A DNA stretch of 38,846 bases, from positions 1 through 38,846 of the forward strand of contig CAIOZY010000022.1 in the NCBI GenBank assembly GCA_903862935.1, in the 5' to 3' direction. The position numbers and the translations under genes are program-made. How positions within the stretch are numbered: position 1 is the stretch's first letter; the number at the start of each line of letters is the position of its first letter. The notes below the pieces were generated by a model that saw only the letters and a program-made list of their open reading frames with translations, was not told where the DNA came from and did not search any database. Source of the DNA: an uncultured Opitutaceae bacterium. Lineage in GTDB: Bacteria > Verrucomicrobiota > Verrucomicrobiia > Opitutales > Opitutaceae. This document shows positions 16,815 to 38,726 of the stretch, in pieces.

Positions 16815-17735
16815 TCAGGCCGCAGGCTCGGGCCCGTCGAAGATGGCCACCAGGCTCGACCCGTCTGACCGGCGGTAGGCCCGGTACATGCCCACGGTGT
16901 TGAAGGGCATCGCGACCCGCCCGTCGCGGTCGATCGCGATCAGGCCGCCTAGCCCCCCGAGCTTTTGCACCTTGTCGATCGCGGCCTGGGCGGCCTCCTC
17001 GAGGCCCAGGCCCTTGTACTCCATGAGCGCCGATACGTCATGGGCCGCGCAGACCCGGATAAAGTACTCGCCCTCCCCGGTCGCGCTCAAGGCGCAGGTC
17101 GCGTTGTTGGCGTAGGTCCCGGAGCCGACGAGCGGGGAATCCCCGACCCGGCCGAACTGCTTATTGTTGAGCCCCCCGGTGGAGGTCCCGGCCGCGAGGT
17201 TCCCGGACTTGTCCAGGGCCGCGCACCCGACTGTCCCGAGTTTTCCCGGCTTTTTTCCGGAGTGCTTCTCCCGGGCCAGTTCCTCGATCCGCCGGGCCGT
17301 CTGCAGTTCGTCGTTTGTCACCAGCGGGAACCCGACCCGTCCGGCAAAGCGCTCCGCCCCCTCCCCGATCAGCATCACGTGGGCGGACTTGTCCATGACG
17401 GCCCGGGCGAGGGCGATCGGGTTTTTGACGTGGCGAAGCCCGGCGACCGAGCCCGCCCGAAGGGTTACCCCGTCCATCAGGGCCGCGTCCAGTTCGCACA
17501 CCCCTTCTGCGTTCAGGACCGAGCCCGAACCCGCGTTAAAGAGCCGGGAGTCCTCAAGGACCGTGATTGCGGCGACCACGGCTTCCAGGGCGGGCCCGCC
17601 GCGGTCGAGGACCGCGTAGCCCGTGTCGATCGCCTGGACAAGCTTCGCCCGGCAGGCCCTCCGGCCCTCCGGGGAGACCTCCTCGGGGAGGGTGACGCCC
17701 GCTCCCCCGTGGATCACCAGTCCGTGGCGCCCCAT
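16815..17735 (-). CDS. iaaA: Isoaspartyl peptidase / plant-type L-asparaginase (Ntn hydrolase)
   Basis: 306 residues, matching the precursor length of this family, which self-cleaves before a threonine to give alpha and beta chains and hydrolyses isoaspartyl dipeptides and asparagine. The start LVIHGGAG, the middle FNAGSGSVLNAEG and AALMDG, and the cleavage site GTVGCAALDKSGNLAAGTS with nucleophile T168 are all clear, followed by TSTGG and GDSPLVGSGTYA (substrate loop). The frame runs open far upstream into putA, but the ATG at 17733-17735, 5 bases after the putA stop, begins the conserved sequence. It is the last gene of the leftward MPE-putA-iaaA set. Confidence 0.92.
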   Translation of the reverse strand: MGRHGLVIHGGAGVTLPEEVSPEGRRACRAKLVQAIDTGYAVLDRGGPALEAVVAAITVLEDSRLFNAGSGSVLNAEGVCELDAALMDGVTLRAGSVAGLRHVKNPIALARAVMDKSAHVMLIGEGAERFAGRVGFPLVTNDELQTARRIEELAREKHSGKKPGKLGTVGCAALDKSGNLAAGTSTGGLNNKQFGRVGDSPLVGSGTYANNATCALSATGEGEYFIRVCAAHDVSALMEYKGLGLEEAAQAAIDKVQKLGGLGGLIAIDRDGRVAMPFNTVGMYRAYRRSDGSSLVAIFDGPEPAA

Positions 17736-17740
17736 GGCGC

Positions 17741-20700
17741 TCACTCCTCCGGGGGCGTGAACCCCCGGCGCAGGACGTTTTCGGCGACAGCCCGGGAGAA
17801 CAGGAAGTTCTCGAGGTACTCCTTGCCGCCGGCCTTGGTGCCGCCCCCGGACATGCGGAAACCGCCGAAGGGGTGGCGCTCGACGATGGCGCCTGTGACC
17901 CCACGGTTCAGATAGATGTTTCCGACCATGAGTTCCTCCTCGGCGCGCTGCAGGGCGCTCGGGCTCCGGGAGAAGATCCCGCCCGTCAGGGCGTAGTCGG
18001 ATGAGTTCACGATCGCGAAGGCCTGGTCCAGGTCCCTGGCCTTCAGGATCGAAAGCACCGGGCCAAAGATCTCCTCGCGGACGATCGTGTGCTCGGGCTT
18101 GCACTCGACAAAGACTGTCGGCGGGACGTAGTAGCCCCCGCTTGCGACCGCCTCGGGCGAGAGTTTCGCCTGCCAGGCCAATTTCGCCTCGGCCTTTCCC
18201 TTCTCGATGTAGCCCAGGATCGACTTCTGCGCCGCGGCGTCGATCACGGGGTTCACGATCGTGCCGGGGCGCGAGGGGTCGCCCACCGGGATCGCCGGGC
18301 AGGCCGCGACAAAGCGGTCCACAAACCGGTCGTAGACCCCCTCAAGGACGATCAGGCGCGACAGGGCCGAGCACTTCTGGCCGGCGTAGCCGAAGGCGCT
18401 CGCCAGGGCCGCCGGGATCGCCTCGTCCAAGTCGGCGTCGTTGTCGATGATGAGGGCGTTTTTCCCTCCCATCTCGCAGACGACCTTCTTTAGGTTCCGC
18501 TGGCCCGGCATGGTCTTTCCCGCCGACTCCCAGATCCCGCACCCCACGGCGCGGGAGCCTGTGAAGGCGTAGAAATCAACCTTGGGGTGGGCCACCAGGT
18601 GGGCGCCCGCGTCCGAGCCGAAGCACGGCAGGTAGGAGGCGACCCCGGGCGGGAGCCCTGCCTCCATGAGGATCTCCATCAGGGTCGCCCCGATGATCGA
18701 GGTCTGGCGGGCCGGCTTGATGATGACGCAGTTTCCTGCGACCAGGGGCGCCACCGTGAGCCCGGTCAGGATCGCCATCGGGAAGTTCCACGGTGCAATC
18801 GCCACGCCGATTCCGCGGGGGGTCCAGGTCTGGACGCACCGCTCGCCGGGGGTCCGCTGGGTGACGACGGGCTTGGCGAGCTTTCGCATCTCCACCGCGT
18901 AGAAGCGGCAGAAGTCGATCGCCTCCGAGATGTCCCCGTCCGCCTCGACCCAGGGTTTCCCGGCCTCGAGGATGAGGAGGGAATTGAGCTCGAAGCGCCT
19001 GGACTCCATGATGTCGGCCGTCTTCTCCAGGAGCCGGGCCCGGTTCTCAACCGGGGTTGCCCGCCATCCGGGGAAGGCCTTCTCGGCTGCGAGGACAGCC
19101 GCCTCGGCGTCCTGGACTGTGCCGCGGGCCCAGTAGCCCACGACCTGGGCGGGCCGGGCGGGGTTGACCGACGGGACGTACTCGCGGTCCGAGATCTTCT
19201 TTCCACCGATCACCAGCGGCCACTTTTTCCCGATCTTCGAGGCCTGGTAGTCCTCGAGGGAGGCCTTCTGGCGCTCCCGGTTGGAGGCGACCGTGAAGTC
19301 GGTGTTCGCGGCGTTCACGAAGGAGCCCGGGGCCCGGGCGGGGCGCGCCAGGGGCTCCCCGGCCTTCGCGATCTCGTCGACGGGGTTTCGGAGCAATTGC
19401 TCGCGGCTCGCCTCGCCCATGTTCTTGATCCGCAGGAACCCCTCGTTACTCGTGTTCTCGAGGAGCCGGCGGACGAGGTAGGACATGCCGGGCAGCAGGT
19501 CTCCGATCGCGCAGTACTCGCGGACCCGCCGTCCGCTCTGCAGGAGGGCGCTCTTCAGTTCGTCCGCCATCCCGTAGAGGGCCTGGAACTCGTAGGCCTT
19601 CGGGTCGATCCCGCGCTTCTCGGCCTGCGCGATCACGTGGGCGCAGGTCCGCACGTTGTGGGAGGCGAAGTTCGGGGTGATGACATCGACATTGTCCAGG
19701 AGAACGCAGGTCAGTTTCTCGTAGTTAGCGTCCGACTCGGGCTTGCGCTGCCACACCGGAGGGGCCCACTCCCGCTGCTGGGCTATGATCGTCTCGTAGT
19801 CCCAGTACGCGCCCTTGACCAGCCGCACGTCGATCCTGCGGCCCTTGCTGCGGGCCCAGGCGATCAGCCCGTTTAGGTCCGCCTCGCAGTCCTTCAGGTA
19901 CGCCTGGAGGGCGATTCCGGTCGCCGGCTTTTGAGCAAACTCGGCCTCCTCGAGGATCGACTTGTAGAGGGCGAGCGTAAGGTCTTTGAGCTTGTAGCTC
20001 TCCATGTCGAAATTCACCAGGGCCCCGACCTCGCCGGCCCGGCGCAGGATCGGCCGCAGCCGCCGCTTGAGGGCCTCGATCGAGTTCTCCGGGTCGGCCG
20101 GGTGGACGTCGGGGGTCAAAGCCGAGATCTTGACCGAGAGGTTCAGGCGCGGCAGCGGCCCCTTGGGCCCCGTGTCGCTGAAGGCCGGCTGCGGGTCCTT
20201 CGCGAAGGAGGCCGAGACCGCCTCCAGGACCTCGAGGTTTCGGCGCAGGAAGATATCGGCCTCCTCCTCGCTGACGACCGCCTCGCCCAGCAGATCGATC
20301 GTCGTCGCAAGGCCCAGTTTCGCGTTCTTTCGGATCTGCTTCAGGAGGTCCTCGGCGTCCTTTCCGGCGACAAACTGGCCGGCCAGGTCCACGATCTGAG
20401 CCTTGACCGGACCCGCCACGAGCGCCGGGGCAAAGGAGGAGGCCGCCAACCCCGCCTTCAGCGCCGGGTTCAGTTCGACCGCCTTGTCGCCCAGGTACTC
20501 CTGCAGGTGCCGGACAATCTCGGTGGAGGAGTTCAGGGCCGGCAGGACGTCGACAAACCGGAACAGCTGGGTCTTGAAGACCGGGTCCTTCATCGCCCAG
20601 TCCATCAGGCGCCCGTAGGCCCCCTTCTTGGAGAACAGGGCAGGCGCAGGCGCCTTGTCCATCAGCGCGAAGAGCTTGTCGCCCCAGGCGCGAACCGCGG

Positions 20701-20746
20701 CCTCAACCGCCGGATCCGGTTTGGAAAATCGCTCGGTCGGATTCAT
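17741..20746 (-). CDS. putA: Bifunctional proline dehydrogenase / glutamate-semialdehyde dehydrogenase
   Basis: 1001 residues. Residues about 100-450 are the FAD-dependent proline dehydrogenase (NLSVKISALTPDV, RLVKGAYWDYE, FASHNVRTCAHVI, QALYGMADELKSAL). Residues about 510-1000 are the NAD-dependent aldehyde dehydrogenase (APWNFPMAILTG, IKPARQTS, FTGSRAVG, E758 in CEMGGKNALI, nucleophile C792 in GQKCSALS, EEIFGPVLS). Together they oxidise proline to glutamate. The protein begins directly with the dehydrogenase arm and lacks the N-terminal ribbon-helix-helix repressor domain of enteric PutA, so regulation must come from elsewhere. AAGGA 8 bases before ATG 20746 is one of the few good ribosome sites here. 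Confidence 0.95.
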   Translation of the reverse strand: MNPTERFSKPDPAVEAAVRAWGDKLFALMDKAPAPALFSKKGAYGRLMDWAMKDPVFKTQLFRFVDVLPALNSSTEIVRHLQEYLGDKAVELNPALKAGLAASSFAPALVAGPVKAQIVDLAGQFVAGKDAEDLLKQIRKNAKLGLATTIDLLGEAVVSEEEADIFLRRNLEVLEAVSASFAKDPQPAFSDTGPKGPLPRLNLSVKISALTPDVHPADPENSIEALKRRLRPILRRAGEVGALVNFDMESYKLKDLTLALYKSILEEAEFAQKPATGIALQAYLKDCEADLNGLIAWARSKGRRIDVRLVKGAYWDYETIIAQQREWAPPVWQRKPESDANYEKLTCVLLDNVDVITPNFASHNVRTCAHVIAQAEKRGIDPKAYEFQALYGMADELKSALLQSGRRVREYCAIGDLLPGMSYLVRRLLENTSNEGFLRIKNMGEASREQLLRNPVDEIAKAGEPLARPARAPGSFVNAANTDFTVASNRERQKASLEDYQASKIGKKWPLVIGGKKISDREYVPSVNPARPAQVVGYWARGTVQDAEAAVLAAEKAFPGWRATPVENRARLLEKTADIMESRRFELNSLLILEAGKPWVEADGDISEAIDFCRFYAVEMRKLAKPVVTQRTPGERCVQTWTPRGIGVAIAPWNFPMAILTGLTVAPLVAGNCVIIKPARQTSIIGATLMEILMEAGLPPGVASYLPCFGSDAGAHLVAHPKVDFYAFTGSRAVGCGIWESAGKTMPGQRNLKKVVCEMGGKNALIIDNDADLDEAIPAALASAFGYAGQKCSALSRLIVLEGVYDRFVDRFVAACPAIPVGDPSRPGTIVNPVIDAAAQKSILGYIEKGKAEAKLAWQAKLSPEAVASGGYYVPPTVFVECKPEHTIVREEIFGPVLSILKARDLDQAFAIVNSSDYALTGGIFSRSPSALQRAEEELMVGNIYLNRGVTGAIVERHPFGGFRMSGGGTKAGGKEYLENFLFSRAVAENVLRRGFTPPEE

Positions 20747-20818: not shown

Positions 20819-21781
20819 CTAAGCGGTTGCCTCCTGCAACACCGGCTCCTCGGCCTCGGCCATGACGGAGGCCGGGATCTCCCACGAGGTTGTGTCGATC
20901 TCCTGCGGCTCGGCCTTCGGGGCCGGGGCAAGGGTGATCATCCGCGCAAAACCCTGCGAGAGGGCCGGGGTGACCCACTGGAGCCCGCCTCCCGGGATCC
21001 GGTCTTTTCGGTCCAGCTGCACGTGGCCGGCGAAGGCCGCCGCCAGGCCCGGGGTCTCCAGGGCGACCGCCCGGAAGCGCCGGGTGATCGTCGTGTTCCG
21101 GGAAAGGATGCCCCAGCGCGCCCGGCGCCTGGGGTCCCAGTCGGACTCCCCGCAAAGGATCGGGTCCTGCCACTTGGCGATGACCGCCCGGCGCAGGTAC
21201 GGCAGCGACAGCGGCACATGGCAGAACAAGACCACGGGCTCGGCCCCCCGCACGGCCGTGTTGAATTTGCGCAGCTGCTCCAGGCGGATCTGGTAGTCGC
21301 TATTGTCCAGCATGACCAGCCGCACCCCGCCGACAATCGTGTCCTCGAACTCCGGGCTCCAGCGGTAGTCGCCGATAAAGCGGATCCAAAGTCTTTCCCG
21401 ATGGGCCTGCCGCCTCTCTTGGCCCCAATCAGCCGGGGCGTCCCAATCCCGCTCGCCCAGGGTAAGGCCGAAGGGAACCCGGACGCTCTCCAGCCGCGAG
21501 GATAGCGTGTCCAGGTTCGCGCTCGTCGCCGACTCCATCAGGTCGCCCGTCAAGGCGACAAAGTCCGGCGCCAGGTGCGGGATCTCGGCAACCAGCTGGT
21601 CCAGGTAGGCCAGCTGCAGGCCCCCGAGCCGGCGGTTTTGGCGGGAGAGGGCTTCAAGGCGGTCCGGGTCGCGCCGGTCGCACTCGCACAAGTTCAGGTC
21701 GCTTGCCTGGAGGATCCGCAGGCGGCGCTTCAGGCCGGGGACCGGGACTTCGGTGGGGAGGATTCGAAGGGAGGGAGCCAT
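20819..21781 (-). CDS. Metallophosphoesterase-like protein with degraded active site
   Basis: 320 residues with the calcineurin-like layout: LQASDLNLCECDRRD, VALTGDLMES, LTLGERDWD, VVLFCHVPLSLPYL and AAFAGHVQLDRKDR. These correspond to the DxH, GDxx, GNHD, H and GHxH metal-site motifs, but three are altered (DLN for DxH, GERD for GNHD, GHVQ for GHxH). A normal two-metal site therefore looks unlikely and the protein may be structural, single-metal or regulatory. It lies 72 bases upstream of putA in the same direction. The ATG at 21781 is chosen; 21 further open residues upstream lack conservation. Two LuxR-box-like sequences lie 64-167 bases before the start. Confidence 0.72.
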   Translation of the reverse strand: MAPSLRILPTEVPVPGLKRRLRILQASDLNLCECDRRDPDRLEALSRQNRRLGGLQLAYLDQLVAEIPHLAPDFVALTGDLMESATSANLDTLSSRLESVRVPFGLTLGERDWDAPADWGQERRQAHRERLWIRFIGDYRWSPEFEDTIVGGVRLVMLDNSDYQIRLEQLRKFNTAVRGAEPVVLFCHVPLSLPYLRRAVIAKWQDPILCGESDWDPRRRARWGILSRNTTITRRFRAVALETPGLAAAFAGHVQLDRKDRIPGGGLQWVTPALSQGFARMITLAPAPKAEPQEIDTTSWEIPASVMAEAEEPVLQEATA

Positions 21782-21844
21782 GGGGGTTATCCCGGCCAGC
21801 CGGTCGGGAACGCCCGAGTCTACGCCATCGCTGCCCGGGCGCAT

Positions 21845-21862
21845 ATCCTACTAAAGATGTAA
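21845..21862 (-). promoter_or_regulatory. Degenerate operator-like half palindrome
   Basis: Minus strand TTACATCTTTAGTAGGAT. It agrees with the palindrome at 21931-21948 (TTACACCTTTAGGTGTAA on the same strand) at 13 of 18 positions, with the left half nearly intact and the right half decayed. It is 64-81 bases upstream of the metallophosphoesterase-like start, a position fit for a second, weaker regulator site in the putA operon promoter. Confidence 0.35.
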
Positions 21863-21930
21863 GTCAGCCGGGCCCGGCCGGGTGTGGAAACCGGGGAAAC
21901 CGCCCCCCAACCGATCGCCCATCCGAAACC

Positions 21931-21948
21931 TTACACCTAAAGGTGTAA
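21931..21948 (+). promoter_or_regulatory. Perfect 18-bp palindrome, putative LuxR-type operator
   Basis: TTACACCTAAAGGTGTAA is a perfect 18-bp palindrome. It sits 2 bases past the stop of the LuxR-type regulator gene and 150-167 bases upstream of the metallophosphoesterase-putA-iaaA operon. Its minus-strand form matches the palindrome upstream of the regulator gene at 14 of 18 positions. It has no T run, so a terminator role is less likely. Confidence 0.55.
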
Positions 21949-21950
21949 TT

Positions 21951-23111
21951 TCACCGGTTCAGAAGCGCCGCGACCCGCGTTCGGTTGTGCGCACCGAGCT
22001 TCACAAAGATGGAGGTCAGCTGGGTCTTTATAGTGAGCGGGCTCCGCCTTAAGGCCGCGGCGATCTCGTCAGTCCTCATGCCCTCCCGCACGTACATCGC
22101 GACCTCGCGCTCGCGGCTGCTTAAGCGCGCGAGGAGCGCCAGGGCCCCCGGCGACACCGCCCGGTGCCGGTCGCCCCGGGGCCGGCGGTAGTCCAATTCG
22201 ATGTGGAAGGCGGGCCTTTGCAGCGAGTCCTTCCCCGCCGCCCGGAGCGCGATCTGGACGTGCAGGCCGATCGCGTGGTCGCTCACGACCTGCGGCTTGA
22301 TCGACCCCTCCTGCCCGGTCCCGGCGATCTTCTCCCACTGGAGCCTCATCTGGGCGCACGCTTCCGCCAGGGGCGGCGGAACCTTGAAGGCCCGCCTTGG
22401 AACCATGGCAGCGCCGCTTCGCTCCCCGTGGTTCCAGACCGCGCAGGCGATCGCCGCCTCGCTGTTAAACCACAGGGGCTTAAGCTCCCAGTCGAGGAGG
22501 AGGAGGCCCACTGGGACCGACTCGAGGAGGGCCGCCACCTGCCCTCCGAAATACACCGCCTCCTCGTGCTCCAGGACCCGCCGGATCGCGGTTTCGACCT
22601 GGGGCTGGAGCGCCTCGGCAAGCCGGATCTCCCGGGCCGTGAAGTCGCCCTCCGCGGCCGCCCGGTGGAAATTCAGGGCGCCTACGACCGAGCGGCGGTC
22701 CCAGGCGGCAACGCACAGCAGGTGATCCCAGCCCTCTTTCCGCATGACCCGCTCCTGGAAAAGGGAGCCTGCGATCGCCCCGGCCGGGGCGATGTCGCTA
22801 AACCGGTAGACCGGGGCCCCGGGGTGGAGGGCGAGCCAGACCCGGTCGGGATGCTCCCGGCGCCACTCGCGGGGGGTGTAGGGATGGGCCCGCCGGAAGA
22901 CCTTGCGGGGGAGCCCGTCTGCGGAGCGGCCGATTTCGAGGGTCAGCGAGCGGCAGGGAATCAGTTCCCCGGCAATGTGCCGGAGTGCGTGCCAGAGGTC
23001 CGCTCCGTTTAAGCAACCGTGCAGCCGCAGGAGGTCGCCCGCCGGCAGGGACTCGGACGGGGCCGCGGCGACGGGGGCGGCGGACGGGGGGATGGAGGCT
23101 CCGGGGTGCAT
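21951..23111 (-). CDS. LuxR-type transcriptional regulator with sensory N-terminal region
   Basis: 386 residues. About residues 25-190 look like a GAF-type sensor (LHPGAPVYRFSDIAPAG, VVGALNFHRAAAEGDFTARE), 200-245 contains a PAS-like strand set (PVGLLLLDWELKPLWFNSEA), and residues 325-386 are a LuxR/NarL helix-turn-helix (LSSREREVAMYVREGMRTDE then AALRRSPLTIKTQLTSIFVK). No receiver domain, so it senses a ligand or redox signal directly. It lies upstream of, and reads in the same direction as, the metallophosphoesterase-putA-iaaA set. Palindromes flank it at 23140-23157 and 21931-21948, suggesting autoregulation and control of proline/asparagine catabolism. That link is an inference. Confidence 0.88.
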   Translation of the reverse strand: MHPGASIPPSAAPVAAAPSESLPAGDLLRLHGCLNGADLWHALRHIAGELIPCRSLTLEIGRSADGLPRKVFRRAHPYTPREWRREHPDRVWLALHPGAPVYRFSDIAPAGAIAGSLFQERVMRKEGWDHLLCVAAWDRRSVVGALNFHRAAAEGDFTAREIRLAEALQPQVETAIRRVLEHEEAVYFGGQVAALLESVPVGLLLLDWELKPLWFNSEAAIACAVWNHGERSGAAMVPRRAFKVPPPLAEACAQMRLQWEKIAGTGQEGSIKPQVVSDHAIGLHVQIALRAAGKDSLQRPAFHIELDYRRPRGDRHRAVSPGALALLARLSSREREVAMYVREGMRTDEIAAALRRSPLTIKTQLTSIFVKLGAHNRTRVAALLNR

Positions 23112-23139
23112 GACAGGGTCGGGTCGGGCTGCTTGGGGG

Positions 23140-23157
23140 TTACTCCTTTTAGAGTAA
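23140..23157 (+). promoter_or_regulatory. Palindrome upstream of the LuxR-type gene, putative autoregulatory operator
   Basis: TTACTCCTTTTAGAGTAA has perfect 6-base arms (TTACTC / GAGTAA) and is centred 37 bases upstream of the regulator's ATG. It shares the pattern TTACnCCTTT....GTAA and the length of 18 with the palindrome beyond the other end of the same gene. The position would allow the regulator to act on its own promoter. Confidence 0.5.
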
Positions 23158-23548
23158 GGGCGAACAACAGGGCGTCAATTCAGCACTCCGACCCGCGCCT
23201 ACCCTCTCGAACGAAGAGTACTCAGGCGCAACAGAACCAACAAACGCCAGCATTAGCTCGGTATCGATGAGGTGGTGAACCCGGGGATCGATCTCGGCAT
23301 CACTTTACTGTAGCCGCGGTGCATTCACCGGGTTGCATTCTCATAATCTCCCTTCCCAGACGGCTTGAAAGCCGAACACGCTCGTAGCACAGTCATGCCC
23401 GCTCAATGGCCTGCAACGCCACCTCACCGTTTCCGCTGCTTTATCAGGTATCGCCGCCCGTGGGCACGATCGTCTTAAGAGGATAGTCTGAGAGAGATCG
23501 GCGCAGGTGAGTGGCTAGAACTTCCCACGGGGAATCCAACCCTCCCGT
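23158..23548. other. Gene-free stretch before the toxin-antitoxin islet
   Basis: About 390 bases with many stops in all frames and a lower G+C content than the neighbouring genes. I see no intact gene, tRNA, repeat array or transposase fragment. The position just downstream (leftward) of the Phd-type antitoxin is where its toxin would normally lie; no RelE, ParE or Doc-like sequence can be read there, so the toxin is either lost or decayed beyond recognition. Confidence 0.5.
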
Positions 23549-23791
23549 TCACTTCGAAAGTTCTCGGAGAGTGTTCCGGTACTTCTCTGCTCCGCGATGG
23601 TAGATCTCCATCGCCTCGGGATCTCCAAGGATCTTTAGGGTTTCGGCTATCGCGGCCACGCGTTTGTGGCTGATCATGACTGCTACAGGTTTTTCGTGCC
23701 GCGTGATCGTAAGCACCTTGCCTTTCTCAGCCCGCCTCACAGCCGCGGCGGTCTCAGCCTTGAGCCCCTTGATGCTGTAGGTGCATTTCAT
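23549..23791 (-). CDS. Phd/YefM-family antitoxin (orphan)
   Basis: 80 residues with the Phd/YefM layout: an N-terminal DNA-binding half (YSIKGLKAETAAAVRRAEKG, KVLTITRHEKPVAVMISHKR) and an acidic/basic helical tail (DPEAMEIYHRGAEKYRNTL) that would wrap a toxin. Such proteins repress their own operon and neutralise RelE, YoeB or Doc-type toxins. No toxin gene follows. A frameshifted relative lies 0.8 kb away at 24569-24816. The gene may be an immunity remnant of a lost module. Confidence 0.85.
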   Translation of the reverse strand: MKCTYSIKGLKAETAAAVRRAEKGKVLTITRHEKPVAVMISHKRVAAIAETLKILGDPEAMEIYHRGAEKYRNTLRELSK

Positions 23792-24032: not shown

Positions 24033-24305
24033 TTACGAAGAAATGAGCTCGCTCGCAGCTTCGACCGCAGCAGAGAAATTTCCCATCGCCTTCTGGCGGG
24101 CATAGGCCTGGAAGCGGCGCACTGCTTCGGGAGATAGCTTGACCGTCTTTCTTAGCTTGCCCAGGGGCTTTCGGCCGGCGCCGGCGCGGGCTCCGCCTCG
24201 AGTCGCGACGGCTCGGCTCGTGTCAAAATAGTCGAGAATGTCCCTGCCCGCGTCGAAGCGGGTTTCAAGAGTTCGGGAAGTAGTTTTTGTGGAGAGCTTC
24301 TTCAT
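24033..24305 (-). CDS. Ribbon-helix-helix antitoxin partner of BrnT
   Basis: 90 residues. The N-terminus (TSRTLETRFDAGRDILDYFD) has the usual BrnA-like look, while the C-terminal half contains a linker GGARAGAGRKPLGKL and a ribbon-helix-helix type stretch KTVKLSPEAVRRFQAYARQK. That part differs from textbook BrnA, where the C-terminal RHH reads otherwise. The gene begins inside the 3' end of brnT, overlapping it by 41 bases, as common in brnTA pairs. It would repress the operon and bind the toxin. Confidence 0.78.
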   Translation of the reverse strand: MKKLSTKTTSRTLETRFDAGRDILDYFDTSRAVATRGGARAGAGRKPLGKLRKTVKLSPEAVRRFQAYARQKAMGNFSAAVEAASELISS

Positions 24306-24600
24306 TGTCGCGGGGGCGCCGGGCGGAGATCAGCCGGAGGAGTTCACCGCGTGGCGCATAGATGACGGTCCAGTAATTTCCGCCTATGAGGCCGATGGCG
24401 AGATGCCGCTCCTCGCCGGGCCTTATTGACGGGATCGAAACGACCGGGCCCTCCCAGAGTTCTGCGGCGATCTCGAGGCTGATTCCATGTTTGGATTCGT
24501 TGGCAGTACTCTTGTTGGGATCCCACTCGAATCTCTCTTTTGAAAACGTACGTATGAAATCAAAACACTCAAGTACTGAATGACCGGTCTGTGATCGCAC
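24265..24600 (-). CDS. brnT: BrnT-family ribonuclease toxin (DUF497)
   Basis: 111 residues from a GTG start. The BrnT core is complete: FEWDPNKSTANESKHGISLE near residue 24, then EERHLAIGLIGGNYWTVIYA and RLISARRPRDNEE at the C-terminus, with the conserved Lys, His, Glu, Trp and Arg of this RelE-like fold. BrnT toxins cleave RNA and arrest growth. The true start may be somewhat inside the frame, since conserved sequence begins at residue 24. The first 32 bases overlap the decayed antitoxin copy upstream, suggesting the modules were laid over each other by insertion or recombination. Confidence 0.85.
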   Translation of the reverse strand: MRSQTGHSVLECFDFIRTFSKERFEWDPNKSTANESKHGISLEIAAELWEGPVVSIPSIRPGEERHLAIGLIGGNYWTVIYAPRGELLRLISARRPRDNEEALHKNYFPNS

Positions 24601-24891: not shown

Positions 24892-25857
24892 CTACGGCTT
24901 CTCCCAGGGGACCGTCTTCGGGTCCACGTTTCCCCCGGACAGGACAATTCCGACCCGAAGCCCCCTTAGCCGCGGCGCCGCCGCCAGGGTCGCGGCAAAT
25001 GCGACCGCGGAGGATGGCTCGACCACGATCTTCAAAACCGTCCACAGCTGCCGCATGGCCTCCACAATCGCAGGCTCGGAGACCGTGATGATCCCCTCGG
25101 CGTGGCGCCTGAGGATCGAAAACGTCACCGGCGCAAGCGAGGTCCGCAGCCCGTCCGCGATCGTCTTCGGGTCGGTCTGCGGGATCAGTTGGCCCGCCTC
25201 GAGGGACCGTGTCGCATCGTCGGCCCCGGCGGGCTCGGCTCCGAATACACGGATCGAGGGCTTAATCCCCTTTGCGGTGATCGCGATTCCGCTTAAGAGC
25301 CCTCCCCCGCCCACGGGAGCTAGGATGACGTCCAGGTTCGAGACCTCCGCCAAAAATTCCAGCGCCACCGTCCCCTGCCCTGCGATCACATTCGTGTTGT
25401 CGTAGGGGTGGATCAGGGTCGCACCCGTCTCCGCGGCGATCCGCTCCGCCGTCGCCTCCCGGTCGGCGAGGGTCGGCCGGCAGAAGGTGATGATCCCCCC
25501 GTAGCGCCGGATCGCCTCGACCTTGAGGGCCGGGGCGTTCTCCGGGACGACGATATAGGCCCGGATCCCGCGGGTTGCGGCAGCGAGGGAGAGCGCCGCC
25601 CCGTGGTTACCCGAGGAGTGGGTGAGAACCCCGTTTCGGGCCTCCTCATCGCGTAAGGCGAAAACCGCGTTGTGGGCCCCCCGGGCCTTGAAAACCCCAG
25701 CCCGCTGCAGGTTCTCGCACTTGAAGAAAAGCCTCAACCCGGTCTCGGCGTCCAGGGTACGGCTCGTGAGGACCGGGGTCCTGGCGATGTGCGCGGCAAT
25801 CCGGTCCCAGGCGGCCTGGACGTCGGTTAACGCCGGCTCTCGGGTCGCGGGGCGCAT
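24892..25857 (-). CDS. PLP-dependent threonine/serine dehydratase (or serine racemase-like)
   Basis: 321 residues, the length of the catabolic/biosynthetic-core form without a C-terminal ACT domain, so not feedback-inhibited IlvA. The PLP lysine is K57 in GVFKARGAHNA; SSGNHGAALSLAA and the phosphate-binding loop VGGGGLLSG follow, with the C-terminal VVEPSSAVAFAA and IVLSGGNVD. The enzyme would deaminate threonine or serine to 2-oxobutyrate or pyruvate; serine racemase activity cannot be excluded. It starts 17 bases after the M20 dipeptidase gene in the same direction, which fits use of peptide-derived amino acids. Confidence 0.92.
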   Translation of the reverse strand: MRPATREPALTDVQAAWDRIAAHIARTPVLTSRTLDAETGLRLFFKCENLQRAGVFKARGAHNAVFALRDEEARNGVLTHSSGNHGAALSLAAATRGIRAYIVVPENAPALKVEAIRRYGGIITFCRPTLADREATAERIAAETGATLIHPYDNTNVIAGQGTVALEFLAEVSNLDVILAPVGGGGLLSGIAITAKGIKPSIRVFGAEPAGADDATRSLEAGQLIPQTDPKTIADGLRTSLAPVTFSILRRHAEGIITVSEPAIVEAMRQLWTVLKIVVEPSSAVAFAATLAAAPRLRGLRVGIVLSGGNVDPKTVPWEKP

Positions 25858-25874: not shown

Positions 25875-27284
25875 TTACCGGGCGAGTTCCGGCCAGAGAA
25901 ACGCCCCGAGCCGGGCTCCCAGGCGGTACCCGGCAAGGCTCATCGCCTCGTTCGGGGAGTGGGTGTTGTCCGAGGGAAGCCCCAGGCCCAAAAGGAGCGT
26001 CTCCGCCCCCAGGGCGGACTTAAACAGGCTCACGATAGGGATCGAACCGCCCTCGCGGACCATCGATGCGGGGTGGCAGTAGGCCTTCTCAAGGGCCCGC
26101 AAAGCCGCCTTGGCGGACGGCTCGGTGACCGGGATCAGGTAGGCCGGGCCCCCGTGGTGGCCCTTTGAAAACTCCACCCGCACGGTCGGCGGGCAGATCC
26201 GCTTCAGGTGCGCCTTGACCAAGCCCGCGATCCGGGACGGATCCTGGTCCGGCACGAGCCGGCAGGTCAGTTTCGCGCGGGCCCAGGCCGGGACGATCGT
26301 CTTCCCGCCCTCGCCCTGGTAGCCGCTCGTGAGCCCGTTGACCTCCAAAGTCGGCCGGCTCGTCCGCTGCTCCTCGGGGGTGTAGCCCTTCTCGCCCTTC
26401 AACTGGGGCACCCCCACAAACTTCGCCAGGGCCTTCGGGGTCCAGGGATCCTGGGCCAGCCGCCGGCGCTCGGCCTTGGAAAGGGGCACGACCCCGCGAT
26501 AGAACCCGGGGACCGCAATCCGGCCGTCCCTGTCGTGGAGGGCCGCGATCATCCGGCAAAGGACGGTGGCAGGGTTGTCGACCGCGCCTCCGAAGGACCC
26601 GGAGTGCAGGTCGCGGGAAGGTCCGCGGACGATGACCTCGACGGCGACGTTGCCCCGGAGCCCGTAGGTCAGGGCGGGCTTGGCCAGGCTCGGCATGCTC
26701 CCGTCGGAGACCACCACCCCGTCGCATCTGAACTTCTTTCGGTTCTTCAGGAGGAACTCGGTCAGGCGTGCGCTGCCGACCTCCTCCTCGCCCTCGAGGA
26801 CAAACGTCAGGTCGCACGGCAGCTCGGTCCCGGTCTTCAGGTAGGCCTCGACCGCGTTCAGGTGGGCCAGGTGCTGGCCTTTGTTGTCGCTGGAACCCCG
26901 GGCGTAGATCCGGCCGCCCCGGATTGCGGGCTTGAAGGGCGCCGACACCCACAGGCCCAGGGGGTCCGTCGGCTGCACATCGTAGTGCCCGTAGACAAGA
27001 TAGTGGAGCCTCCCCTTCCCCTTAACGGGCGGGGTCCGGGCGACGACAATCGGGTTTCCCGGAGTCTCGTAAATCTTGGTCGCCAGTCCGATCGAGCGGC
27101 AGTGCTTGGCGATCCAGGCGGCGCAGCGCCGGATGTCTGGCCGGTGCTCGCGCTGGGCGGACACACTCGGGATTTCCAGGTATTCGCTCAACTCGCGCAC
27201 AAAGCGGGCCTCGTTCTTCTTCAGGTAGGCGTTGACGGCGGCGAGGTTCGAGTCGCCCTTCCCTGTCCGGGTCTTGTTTGGCAT
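25875..27284 (-). CDS. M20-family metallodipeptidase
   Basis: 469 residues, typical of the CNDP/carnosinase-like M20 group. Metal ligands can be read in order: H in VYGHYDVQPTDP, D in ARGSSDNKGQ, catalytic E and ligand E in VLEGEEEVGS, D in VSDGSMPS, and H in DNTHSPNEAMSLAGY. The HSGSFGGAVDNP stretch belongs to the inserted dimerisation domain. No signal peptide, so it is a cytoplasmic dipeptidase (or related deacylase). It is probably co-transcribed with the threonine/serine dehydratase and is divergent from the alginate-lyase-like gene across 111 bases. Confidence 0.92.
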   Translation of the reverse strand: MPNKTRTGKGDSNLAAVNAYLKKNEARFVRELSEYLEIPSVSAQREHRPDIRRCAAWIAKHCRSIGLATKIYETPGNPIVVARTPPVKGKGRLHYLVYGHYDVQPTDPLGLWVSAPFKPAIRGGRIYARGSSDNKGQHLAHLNAVEAYLKTGTELPCDLTFVLEGEEEVGSARLTEFLLKNRKKFRCDGVVVSDGSMPSLAKPALTYGLRGNVAVEVIVRGPSRDLHSGSFGGAVDNPATVLCRMIAALHDRDGRIAVPGFYRGVVPLSKAERRRLAQDPWTPKALAKFVGVPQLKGEKGYTPEEQRTSRPTLEVNGLTSGYQGEGGKTIVPAWARAKLTCRLVPDQDPSRIAGLVKAHLKRICPPTVRVEFSKGHHGGPAYLIPVTEPSAKAALRALEKAYCHPASMVREGGSIPIVSLFKSALGAETLLLGLGLPSDNTHSPNEAMSLAGYRLGARLGAFLWPELAR

Positions 27285-37181: not shown

Positions 37182-38726
37182 GTGAAACCGGGCACCCCCT
37201 TCCAACTCGGGGACCGTCCCCTCGATGTGGCGACGGCCGGGGAGGTGCTGGGCTCGAAGCGGACGATCGCCCTCTCCCCTGCAGCCCGGGACCGGATCGC
37301 CGCATCCCGCGGGGTTGTCGAGCGGCTGCTCGCAAGCGGCGGGGTCTACTACGGGATCAACACGGGCTTCGGGGCCCTGGCCCACCAGCGGGTGCCCGCC
37401 GACAGCCTGGTCCAGCTCCAGGAAAACCTGATCCTGAGCCACGCGGTCGGGGTCGGGGACGAGGTCCCGGCGGACATTGTGCGGCTGATGCTTCTTTTGA
37501 AGGTGAACGGGCTGTCGCAGGGGCTGTCGGGCGTGAGGCCCTTCTTGGTCGACCGGCTGCTTCTCCTGTACAACGAGGACGTCCTGCCGGTCGTCTTCAC
37601 CCAGGGGTCCCTGGGGGCCTCGGGCGACCTGGCGCCCCTGGCGCACATGACCCTTCCGCTGCTCGGCCTGGGCGAGGTCATGCTCAAGGGAAAGCGGATG
37701 CCGGCCGCGGAGGCGCTGGCTGCGGTGGAGCTAAAGCCGATCCATCTCGAGTCGAAGGAGGGCCTGGCCCTCATCAACGGGACCCAGTTCATGTCGGCCT
37801 ATGCGGTCCATGCGCTCCTTCGGATTCTGCCCTTGCTGAAGACAGCCGACATCGCGGCAGCAATGACTTTGGAGGCGACCCGGGGCAGCGCCGCCCCCTT
37901 TGACGAGCGGATCCACAACGCCCGGCCCCACGAGGGCCAGGGCCGGACTGCGGCGAACTTAAGGCGCCTTCTCACCGCCTCCGAGATCCTGCCCTCCCAC
38001 AGGAATTGCCCGAAGGTGCAGGACCCGTATTCCCTGCGGTGCGTCCCCCAGGTCCACGGCGCCTCCCGGGACATCGTCCTTCAGGCGCTTAAAACGATCG
38101 AAATCGAGATCAATTCGGCGACCGACAACCCGCTCGTATTTCCCGAGGGCGACATCGTGAGCGGAGGGAACTTCCACGGTGAGCCGCTCGCCTTTGCGAT
38201 GGATTTTCTTGCGGTAGCGGTCGCGGAACTGGCCTCGATCTCGGAACGGCGGCTCTACCTCCTTTTGGGCGGCGACACGGTGGGCGATATTAAGCTCCCG
38301 AAACTTCTCATGAAGGACACCGGGCTCAACTCCGGGTTCATGCTTCCCCAGTACACGGCCGCCGCCTTGGTCTCCGAGAACAAGATCCTCTGCCATCCGG
38401 CATCCGTCGACTCGATCCCCAGTTCCCTGGGGCAGGAGGACCATGTCTCGATGGGGGCGACGGCGGCCACCAAGCTGATCCAGGTCGTCCGAAACGCCGA
38501 GACAGTCCTTGCAATCGAGGTCATGAGTGCGGCCCAGGCCCTCGATTTCATCCACCCCTTGAAGGCCGGAAAGGGGATCGAGGCCGCCCACCGGGAGGTG
38601 AGGAAGGTGATCTCATTTGCCGAATCCGACCGACTCTTCCACGACGATATCCAGGCGTCCCTGGCTCTCGTCCGCTCCCCTGCCCTGATCGCAGCCGCCG
38701 AGGGGGCGGTAGGGCCGCTCCAATGA
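37182..38726 (+). CDS. hutH: Histidine ammonia-lyase
   Basis: 514 residues from a GTG start. The enzyme removes ammonia from histidine to give urocanate. The self-formed MIO cofactor arises from Ala146-Ser147-Gly148 in [15 protein letters not shown]. Also visible: [15 protein letters not shown] (catalytic Tyr), [52 protein letters not shown] and [15 protein letters not shown]. It is histidine- and not phenylalanine-specific by context, since hutU follows at once (ATGA overlap). Confidence 0.95.

Follow-up and report, generated by a model that had tools for sequence, protein, structure and literature searches.

A LuxR/NarL-type regulator gene in the window (the whole 38,846-nucleotide stretch of Opitutaceae DNA analysed here) is flanked by two related palindromes, and both appear to be genuine binding sites for the protein encoded between them. 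We propose, with a probability of roughly 0.6, that this protein is a regulator of aromatic amino acid catabolism whose usual targets have been lost, which has kept its own operator, and which may control the adjacent metallophosphoesterase-putA-iaaA genes. The features concerned are:

16815-17741, minus strand: iaaA-type asparaginase / isoaspartyl peptidase (Asparaginase_2, 348.7 bits)
17741-20746, minus strand: putA, 1001 aa, with PutA_N, proline dehydrogenase and aldehyde dehydrogenase (Pfam, NCBIfam)
20819-21844, minus strand: metallophosphoesterase-like ORF, 341 aa (Metallophos 22.4 bits, cut-off 21.5)
21845-21862, minus strand: third, degenerate copy of the palindrome; a possible but doubtful site that overlaps the ribosome-binding region of the metallophosphoesterase
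21931-21948, minus strand: palindrome TTACACCTAAAGGTGTAA, 2 bases past the regulator stop; second probable operator
21951-23111, minus strand: LuxR/NarL-type regulator, 386 aa, ATG at 23111; GerE by Pfam
23140-23157: palindrome TTACTCCTTTTAGAGTAA, minus-strand reading TTACTCTAAAAGGAGTAA, 28 bases upstream of the regulator ATG; probable autoregulatory operator

Palindromes at the two ends of the regulator gene

Both palindromes are present where the preliminary description of this DNA had placed them, including the one just after the regulator stop, and its match counts for the two palindromes (14/18) and for the third copy (13/18) were correct when counted by eye. Its figure of about 37 bases between the regulator start and the upstream palindrome needs correction, as the actual gap from the ATG at 23111 is 28 bases. 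The 21931-21948 site has a 7-2-7 form with fully complementary 8-base arms, and is upstream of the metallophosphoesterase, at a distance of 86 bases from the ATG at 21844 (the site starts about 103 bases before that ATG); the 23140-23157 site is palindromic in its outer 6-base arms only. The third copy had been placed 64-81 bases upstream of the metallophosphoesterase, which holds if that gene starts at 21782. If the start is instead the in-frame ATG at 21844, which has AGGA before it, the copy abuts the start codon and may be a ribosome-binding sequence instead of an operator.

The possibility that such palindromes are common throughout the genome had also been raised, and the sites turned out to be rare. 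Without mismatch, TTACNCCTNNNNGNGTAA occurs only at 21931 and 23140 in the whole 3.35-Mb genome, and the 21931 site is the sole exact copy of TACNCCNNNNGGNGTA. Allowing one mismatch, TACNCCNNNNGGNGTA is found at 30 places, versus 144 for the reversed control; of these places, 27 lie outside the window, 22 of them within ORFs. We regard these as background and reject a wider regulon in this genome based on one-mismatch sites.

Domain architecture of the regulator

The regulator carries a C-terminal GerE domain (PF00196, 43.6 bits, cut-off 23.5), and an AlphaFold model (mean pLDDT 83.9, pTM 0.59) delimits a GAF-like domain (about 24-185) and a PAS-like domain (about 200-308) with a long helix between them, followed by GerE (329-382). 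Pfam matches to GAF in this protein are below cut-off, as is the only Pfam match to PAS, which comes from one short relative, and the GAF part is absent from most close relatives. Among the best 50 Foldseek matches shown, DhaR, phytochromes and SdiA came top, covering most of the model at high rmsd (17-18 for the SdiA structures); the GAF domain 3eea (TM 0.65 by its own length) ranked below these, and the match of VqmA to the regulator was weak and partial (E 1.5e-4, TMq 0.19). A Pfam scan with HMMER filters on, accepting hits up to E 5, showed no Autoind_bind domain in the protein, and no Response_reg receiver domain was found by Pfam. The segment SPLTIKTQL, our candidate for the recognition helix, is shared without change by 21 of 26 aligned proteins, the window protein among them, and CAVWNHGE (residues 223-230, in the PAS-like domain) is invariant in all 26 and could possibly form a ligand or metal site.

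The site is conserved upstream of related regulators

Searching 141 related genomes gave regulator matches in 33, of which 17 were classed as close (E 5.4e-49 or better), a line drawn post hoc where identity falls from about 51% to 34% or less. Another 39 loci were taken from genomes titled as Opitutaceae or other Verrucomicrobiota. The close loci numbered 54, or 45 distinct ones (the window included) after identical C-terminal stretches were merged. The 54 do not include homologues with only about 24-34% identity, 15 of which had loci (L044-L056, L093, L094) and received a separate scoring. The motif of the preliminary description reached a simple score of 9 or 10 out of 10 at 25 of the 54 close loci (a few of the 25 not upstream) versus 0 of the 15 distant ones. 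The common form of the relatives' upstream sites is TACKCC-N4-GGMGTA, a NarL-type 7-2-7 arrangement.

Scored against a 12-position pattern, sites of at least 10/12 lie upstream (within 260 bases before the matched region) in 39 of the 45 distinct close relatives, compared to 2.4% of 2250 dinucleotide shuffles, 2 of the 15 distant homologues, and 16 of 336 other ORFs in the same neighbourhoods, some of which are probably true sites. Since the pattern took its shape from the very sequences in which sites were later counted, and since the relatives are not independent (G051 and G084, for example, represent one genus), these figures are not strict probabilities. Genome-wide over the 17 regulator genomes, the strict pattern shows no enrichment, with 23 places vs 63 for the control, and TACKCCNNNNGGMGTA is present in 10 of these 17 genomes and in 28 of the 124 others; the signal lies in the location of the sites. 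The proposal that this LuxR-type protein regulates itself through the palindromes, which lack of conservation in relatives would have refuted, is therefore well supported by comparative evidence.

Two sites of unequal strength in the window

As an independent test in the reverse direction, we scored the window with a matrix built from 28 distinct upstream sites of the relatives, excluding the window's own sites, in a directional and a strand-symmetric version, and compared the scores with the maximum of each of 100 dinucleotide-shuffled windows. Both versions ranked 23140 first and 21931 second. The 23140 site (22.6 symmetric, 21.2 directional) was equalled by none of the shuffled windows in either version, while the 21931 site (16.3 and 12.5) was reached by 2 and 18 of 100, respectively. 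On these counts, the assignment of 23140 as a predicted operator is secure and that of 21931 moderately secure, the strength of the latter lying in its symmetry and place. On the directional matrix, 21931 scores lower than every one of the 28 relatives' sites (19.8-31.7), whose symmetric scores (13.6-27.2) include 2 lower than that of 21931; the best symmetric score was 14.1 in 168 kb of other stretches of the genome chosen for holding near matches. The third copy scored 8.2 on the directional matrix, rank 5 in the window.

The orientation of 21931 is that of a target-type site (10.5, versus -0.1 in the opposite orientation). Read in the sense of the put-cluster genes it is TTACACCTTTAGGTGTAA, which resembles the rough form TTACTCCNTTYGGCGTAT of the relatives' sites before 4-hydroxyphenylpyruvate dioxygenase (HPPD) in that sense, and so agrees in orientation with HPPD-type sites. 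Its distance to the ATG at 21844 is also within the -65 to -122 range of HPPD sites.

The regulator family and phenylalanine/tyrosine catabolism

Neighbourhood ORFs around the relatives were clustered and their representatives named by NCBIfam and Pfam. The recurrent neighbours include HPPD (TIGR01263, 379 bits, cut-off 277), phenylalanine 4-monooxygenase (NF008877, 287.5, cut-off 247), acetyl-CoA acyltransferase (TIGR01930, 430, cut-off 240.55), and homogentisate dioxygenase (L129 4217-5404, with HgmA_N and HgmA_C above Pfam cut-offs), as well as a flavin-reductase-like protein, an acyl-CoA ligase and an FAH-like hydrolase, the last of which was below equivalog cut-offs. The Opitutaceae homogentisate dioxygenase scores 57 bits against an hmgA equivalog cut-off of 510.75 and is, by this score, a divergent branch. 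In 34 of the 45 loci, HPPD and the regulator are divergently arranged, and 31 of these 34 have a site of at least 10/12 within 260 bases; in some HPPD-less relatives (G018, G077), the divergent gene is a thiolase, followed by FadJ-like and 2-oxoacid dehydrogenase genes. The window protein, itself a long branch (0.39), belongs to a clade (97/99) of 8 rows, 5 of them with divergent HPPD. Clustering of HPPD adjacency on the tree was considered and rejected, as its 10 changes were matched or undercut by 328 of 500 shuffles.

Across genomes, HPPD is present in 15 of 141, namely 12 of the 17 with the regulator versus 3 of the 124 others (Fisher 3e-11), which leaves 5 of 17 regulator genomes without it; homogentisate dioxygenase is present in 16 of 141. 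When genes were examined for a site of at least 10/12 within 250 bases upstream (1.4-2.1% in shuffles), HPPD had one in all 11 regulator genomes examined (the twelfth, G058, was left out since the end of the contig truncates its HPPD; the intergenic site there scores 9/12), phenylalanine hydroxylase in 6 of 12 (the other 6 fell short of 10), and the fused E1-E2 2-oxoacid dehydrogenase in 4 of 14 (10 fell short). The corresponding counts for genomes in which a close regulator was not detected were 1/3, 1/2 and 0/2, respectively. Sites also occur at separate places, with a strict one before the fumarylacetoacetase of G049 at its own locus (TIGR01266, 549 bits), and strict or near-strict ones before the gene of a VorB-like oxidoreductase in both G027 and G050 (annotated for one of the two) and before an FAH-like gene in G076. 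Judged by these neighbours and sites, the regulator family is tied to phenylalanine/tyrosine catabolism, and proline is not the family rule.

Two further observations concern the relatives. In G024, which has HPPD and no close regulator, a LuxR-like ORF (L242 684-1997; GerE 13.7 bits, below cut-off) is preceded by TACTCCTTAGGGAGTA at 2024, 27 bases upstream. In G018, two strict sites 75 bases apart (L139 9407 and 9482) lie upstream of a 147-aa protein with no Pfam match.

A possible switch of target in this genome

We infer that the regulator is a cytoplasmic GAF-PAS-GerE protein whose GerE dimer would bind 7-2-7 palindromes of the form TACKCC-N4-GGMGTA, as NarL does. In the usual setting, a single predicted site lies between the divergent regulator and a catabolic operon (HPPD, homogentisate dioxygenase, often thiolase), and others precede a subset of the phenylalanine hydroxylase, fumarylacetoacetase and 2-oxoacid dehydrogenase genes. 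Since one site in the divergent region is shared, the regulator would act on its target and on itself; the distance of the site from the target suggests activation, and its closeness to the regulator's own start suggests self-repression. A single protein could thereby sense a presumed amino-acid-related signal, set its own level, and switch amino acid breakdown. In the genome studied here, the usual targets appear to be gone, the putative operator at 23140 has been kept, and a second is predicted at 21931, through which the regulator probably controls metallophosphoesterase-putA-iaaA, three genes that are presumably co-transcribed. The link to putA comes from one genome. A stronger version of this proposal, that of regulatory capture, in which the regulator survived when all of its usual regulon was lost and came to control proline breakdown through a new symmetrical operator, is tentative, and we hold it somewhat less probable than its negation.

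The gene contents of the genome are consistent with the loss of targets. No match was found for HPPD or homogentisate dioxygenase at E 1e-20, for phenylalanine hydroxylase at 1e-25, or for the fused dehydrogenase at 1e-100 (a strict line) in this assembly of 3.35 Mb (62 contigs, 95.55% complete), in which a single absence could be a gap. Remnants of an HPPD operon gave no significant match in the window (best E 0.05 for the families tested). The first gene after the 21931 site is the metallophosphoesterase-like ORF. The ribbon-helix-helix domain was not found in PutA, where Pfam reports only PutA_N, Pro_dh and Aldedh, in agreement with the earlier statement that this PutA has no repressor domain of its own.

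Upstream of the regulator, genes for a Phd/YefM-type antitoxin (23549-23791, minus) and a BrnT-type toxin (24265-24600, minus) occupy the place of the relatives' catabolic operon, which may mark a rearrangement. Besides putA and iaaA, the window holds other amino acid breakdown genes: a hydroxyaspartate/threonine dehydratase-like gene (24892-25857, minus), an M20 dipeptidase (25875-27284, minus) and an aromatic amino acid lyase (37182-38726, plus).

Alternative explanations

The best-surviving alternative, unlikely in our view but deserving of weight, is that the protein is an orphan that regulates only itself after target loss, with 21931 as either an additional site for its own control or a relic, and with putA as a chance neighbour on the same strand. 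Comparisons of putA loci favor it. Among relatives, none of 19 usable putA upstream regions (of 21 loci) holds a site of at least 11/12 within 1.5 kb; three reach 10/12, none of them within 250 bases. Of the four regulator genomes that gave a putA upstream region, none has a site of at least 10/12 within 250 bp. The distance from putA to the regulator exceeds 115 kb in G027 and G033, and in G018 and G011 the two are on separate contigs. The failure to find any of the usual target genes in this genome, the long branch of the regulator, and the low directional score of 21931 relative to the relatives' sites point the same way. Against it, 21931 is the only exact TACNCCNNNNGGNGTA in the genome and stands in target-type orientation at the distance usual for HPPD, and an unused site would be expected to decay. 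Two candidate conservation signals were rejected in the course of these comparisons: a conserved regulator-putA link was not found (57 genomes for linkage, 4 regulator genomes for the 250-bp upstream site), and the metallophosphoesterase is not a conserved partner, as it is at 0 of 21 putA loci and has no match at E 1e-20 in 140 other genomes.

Much less probable is that the palindromes are chance occurrences or RNA structures such as a terminator or attenuator. Each could form a 7-bp RNA hairpin, the plus-strand fold of 21900-21960 has a z of -2.84 (0.71 for 23120-23175), the transcribed minus strand gives -0.59 and -1.90 for the same two intervals, and, as regards chance, 18 of 100 shuffled windows attain the directional score of 21931. 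However, the site recurs upstream of the relatives' regulators and before genes at other loci, and we reject the terminator or RNA-element reading given that 21700-23400 contains no terminator-like site and that folds on the transcribed strand are weak.

A dedicated family of proline/asparagine catabolism regulators, as first put forward, has the adjacency and the 21931 site of this genome on its side and is very improbable, largely refuted as a family rule by relatives that are tied to phenylalanine/tyrosine genes and whose putA, in those examined, is unlinked and has no conserved upstream site. What stands of that idea is the narrower one, local control of the put cluster, a reasonable single-genome inference because searches for the usual targets came up empty and the promoter position is occupied by a symmetrical site.

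Relation to known regulators

NarL of E. coli offers the closest parallel to the site, as its output-domain dimer binds inverted heptamers two bases apart, and an engineered NarL site (TACCCCTAAAGGGGTA; PMC4549865) shares all but 2 of its 16 positions with TACACCTAAAGGTGTA of the window. NarL is a phosphorylated nitrate response regulator, whereas the window protein has GAF- and PAS-like domains and no receiver domain was found in it. VqmA of Vibrio is a cytoplasmic, ligand-sensing activator with a PAS domain and a LuxR-type HTH (PMC8284805), a layout like that of those relatives that are only about 200 aa long; the window protein carries a GAF-like domain in addition, and VqmA serves quorum sensing via DPO, to which nothing in the window points.

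In Proteobacteria, tyrosine degradation falls under HmgR (IclR), HmgQ (LysR), HmgS (MarR) and TyrR/PhrR regulons (accessible part of PMC5343134). These resemble the window family in that they control hpd, hmg and phh genes, by prediction or as established, but differ from its LuxR type in protein family, and no LuxR-type regulator of tyrosine degradation was found in that part of the source. The open-access literature yielded neither a LuxR-type regulator of the homogentisate pathway nor work on Opitutaceae regulons, which is weak evidence of novelty.

Overall, our analysis predicts a regulator of phenylalanine/tyrosine catabolism in Opitutaceae (Verrucomicrobiota), together with its operator and regulon. 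The protein belongs to a different family from the regulators listed for Proteobacteria, which are of the IclR, LysR, MarR and TyrR types. A regulator and operator that would have persisted after the loss of their usual targets would also make regulator recruitment directly testable.
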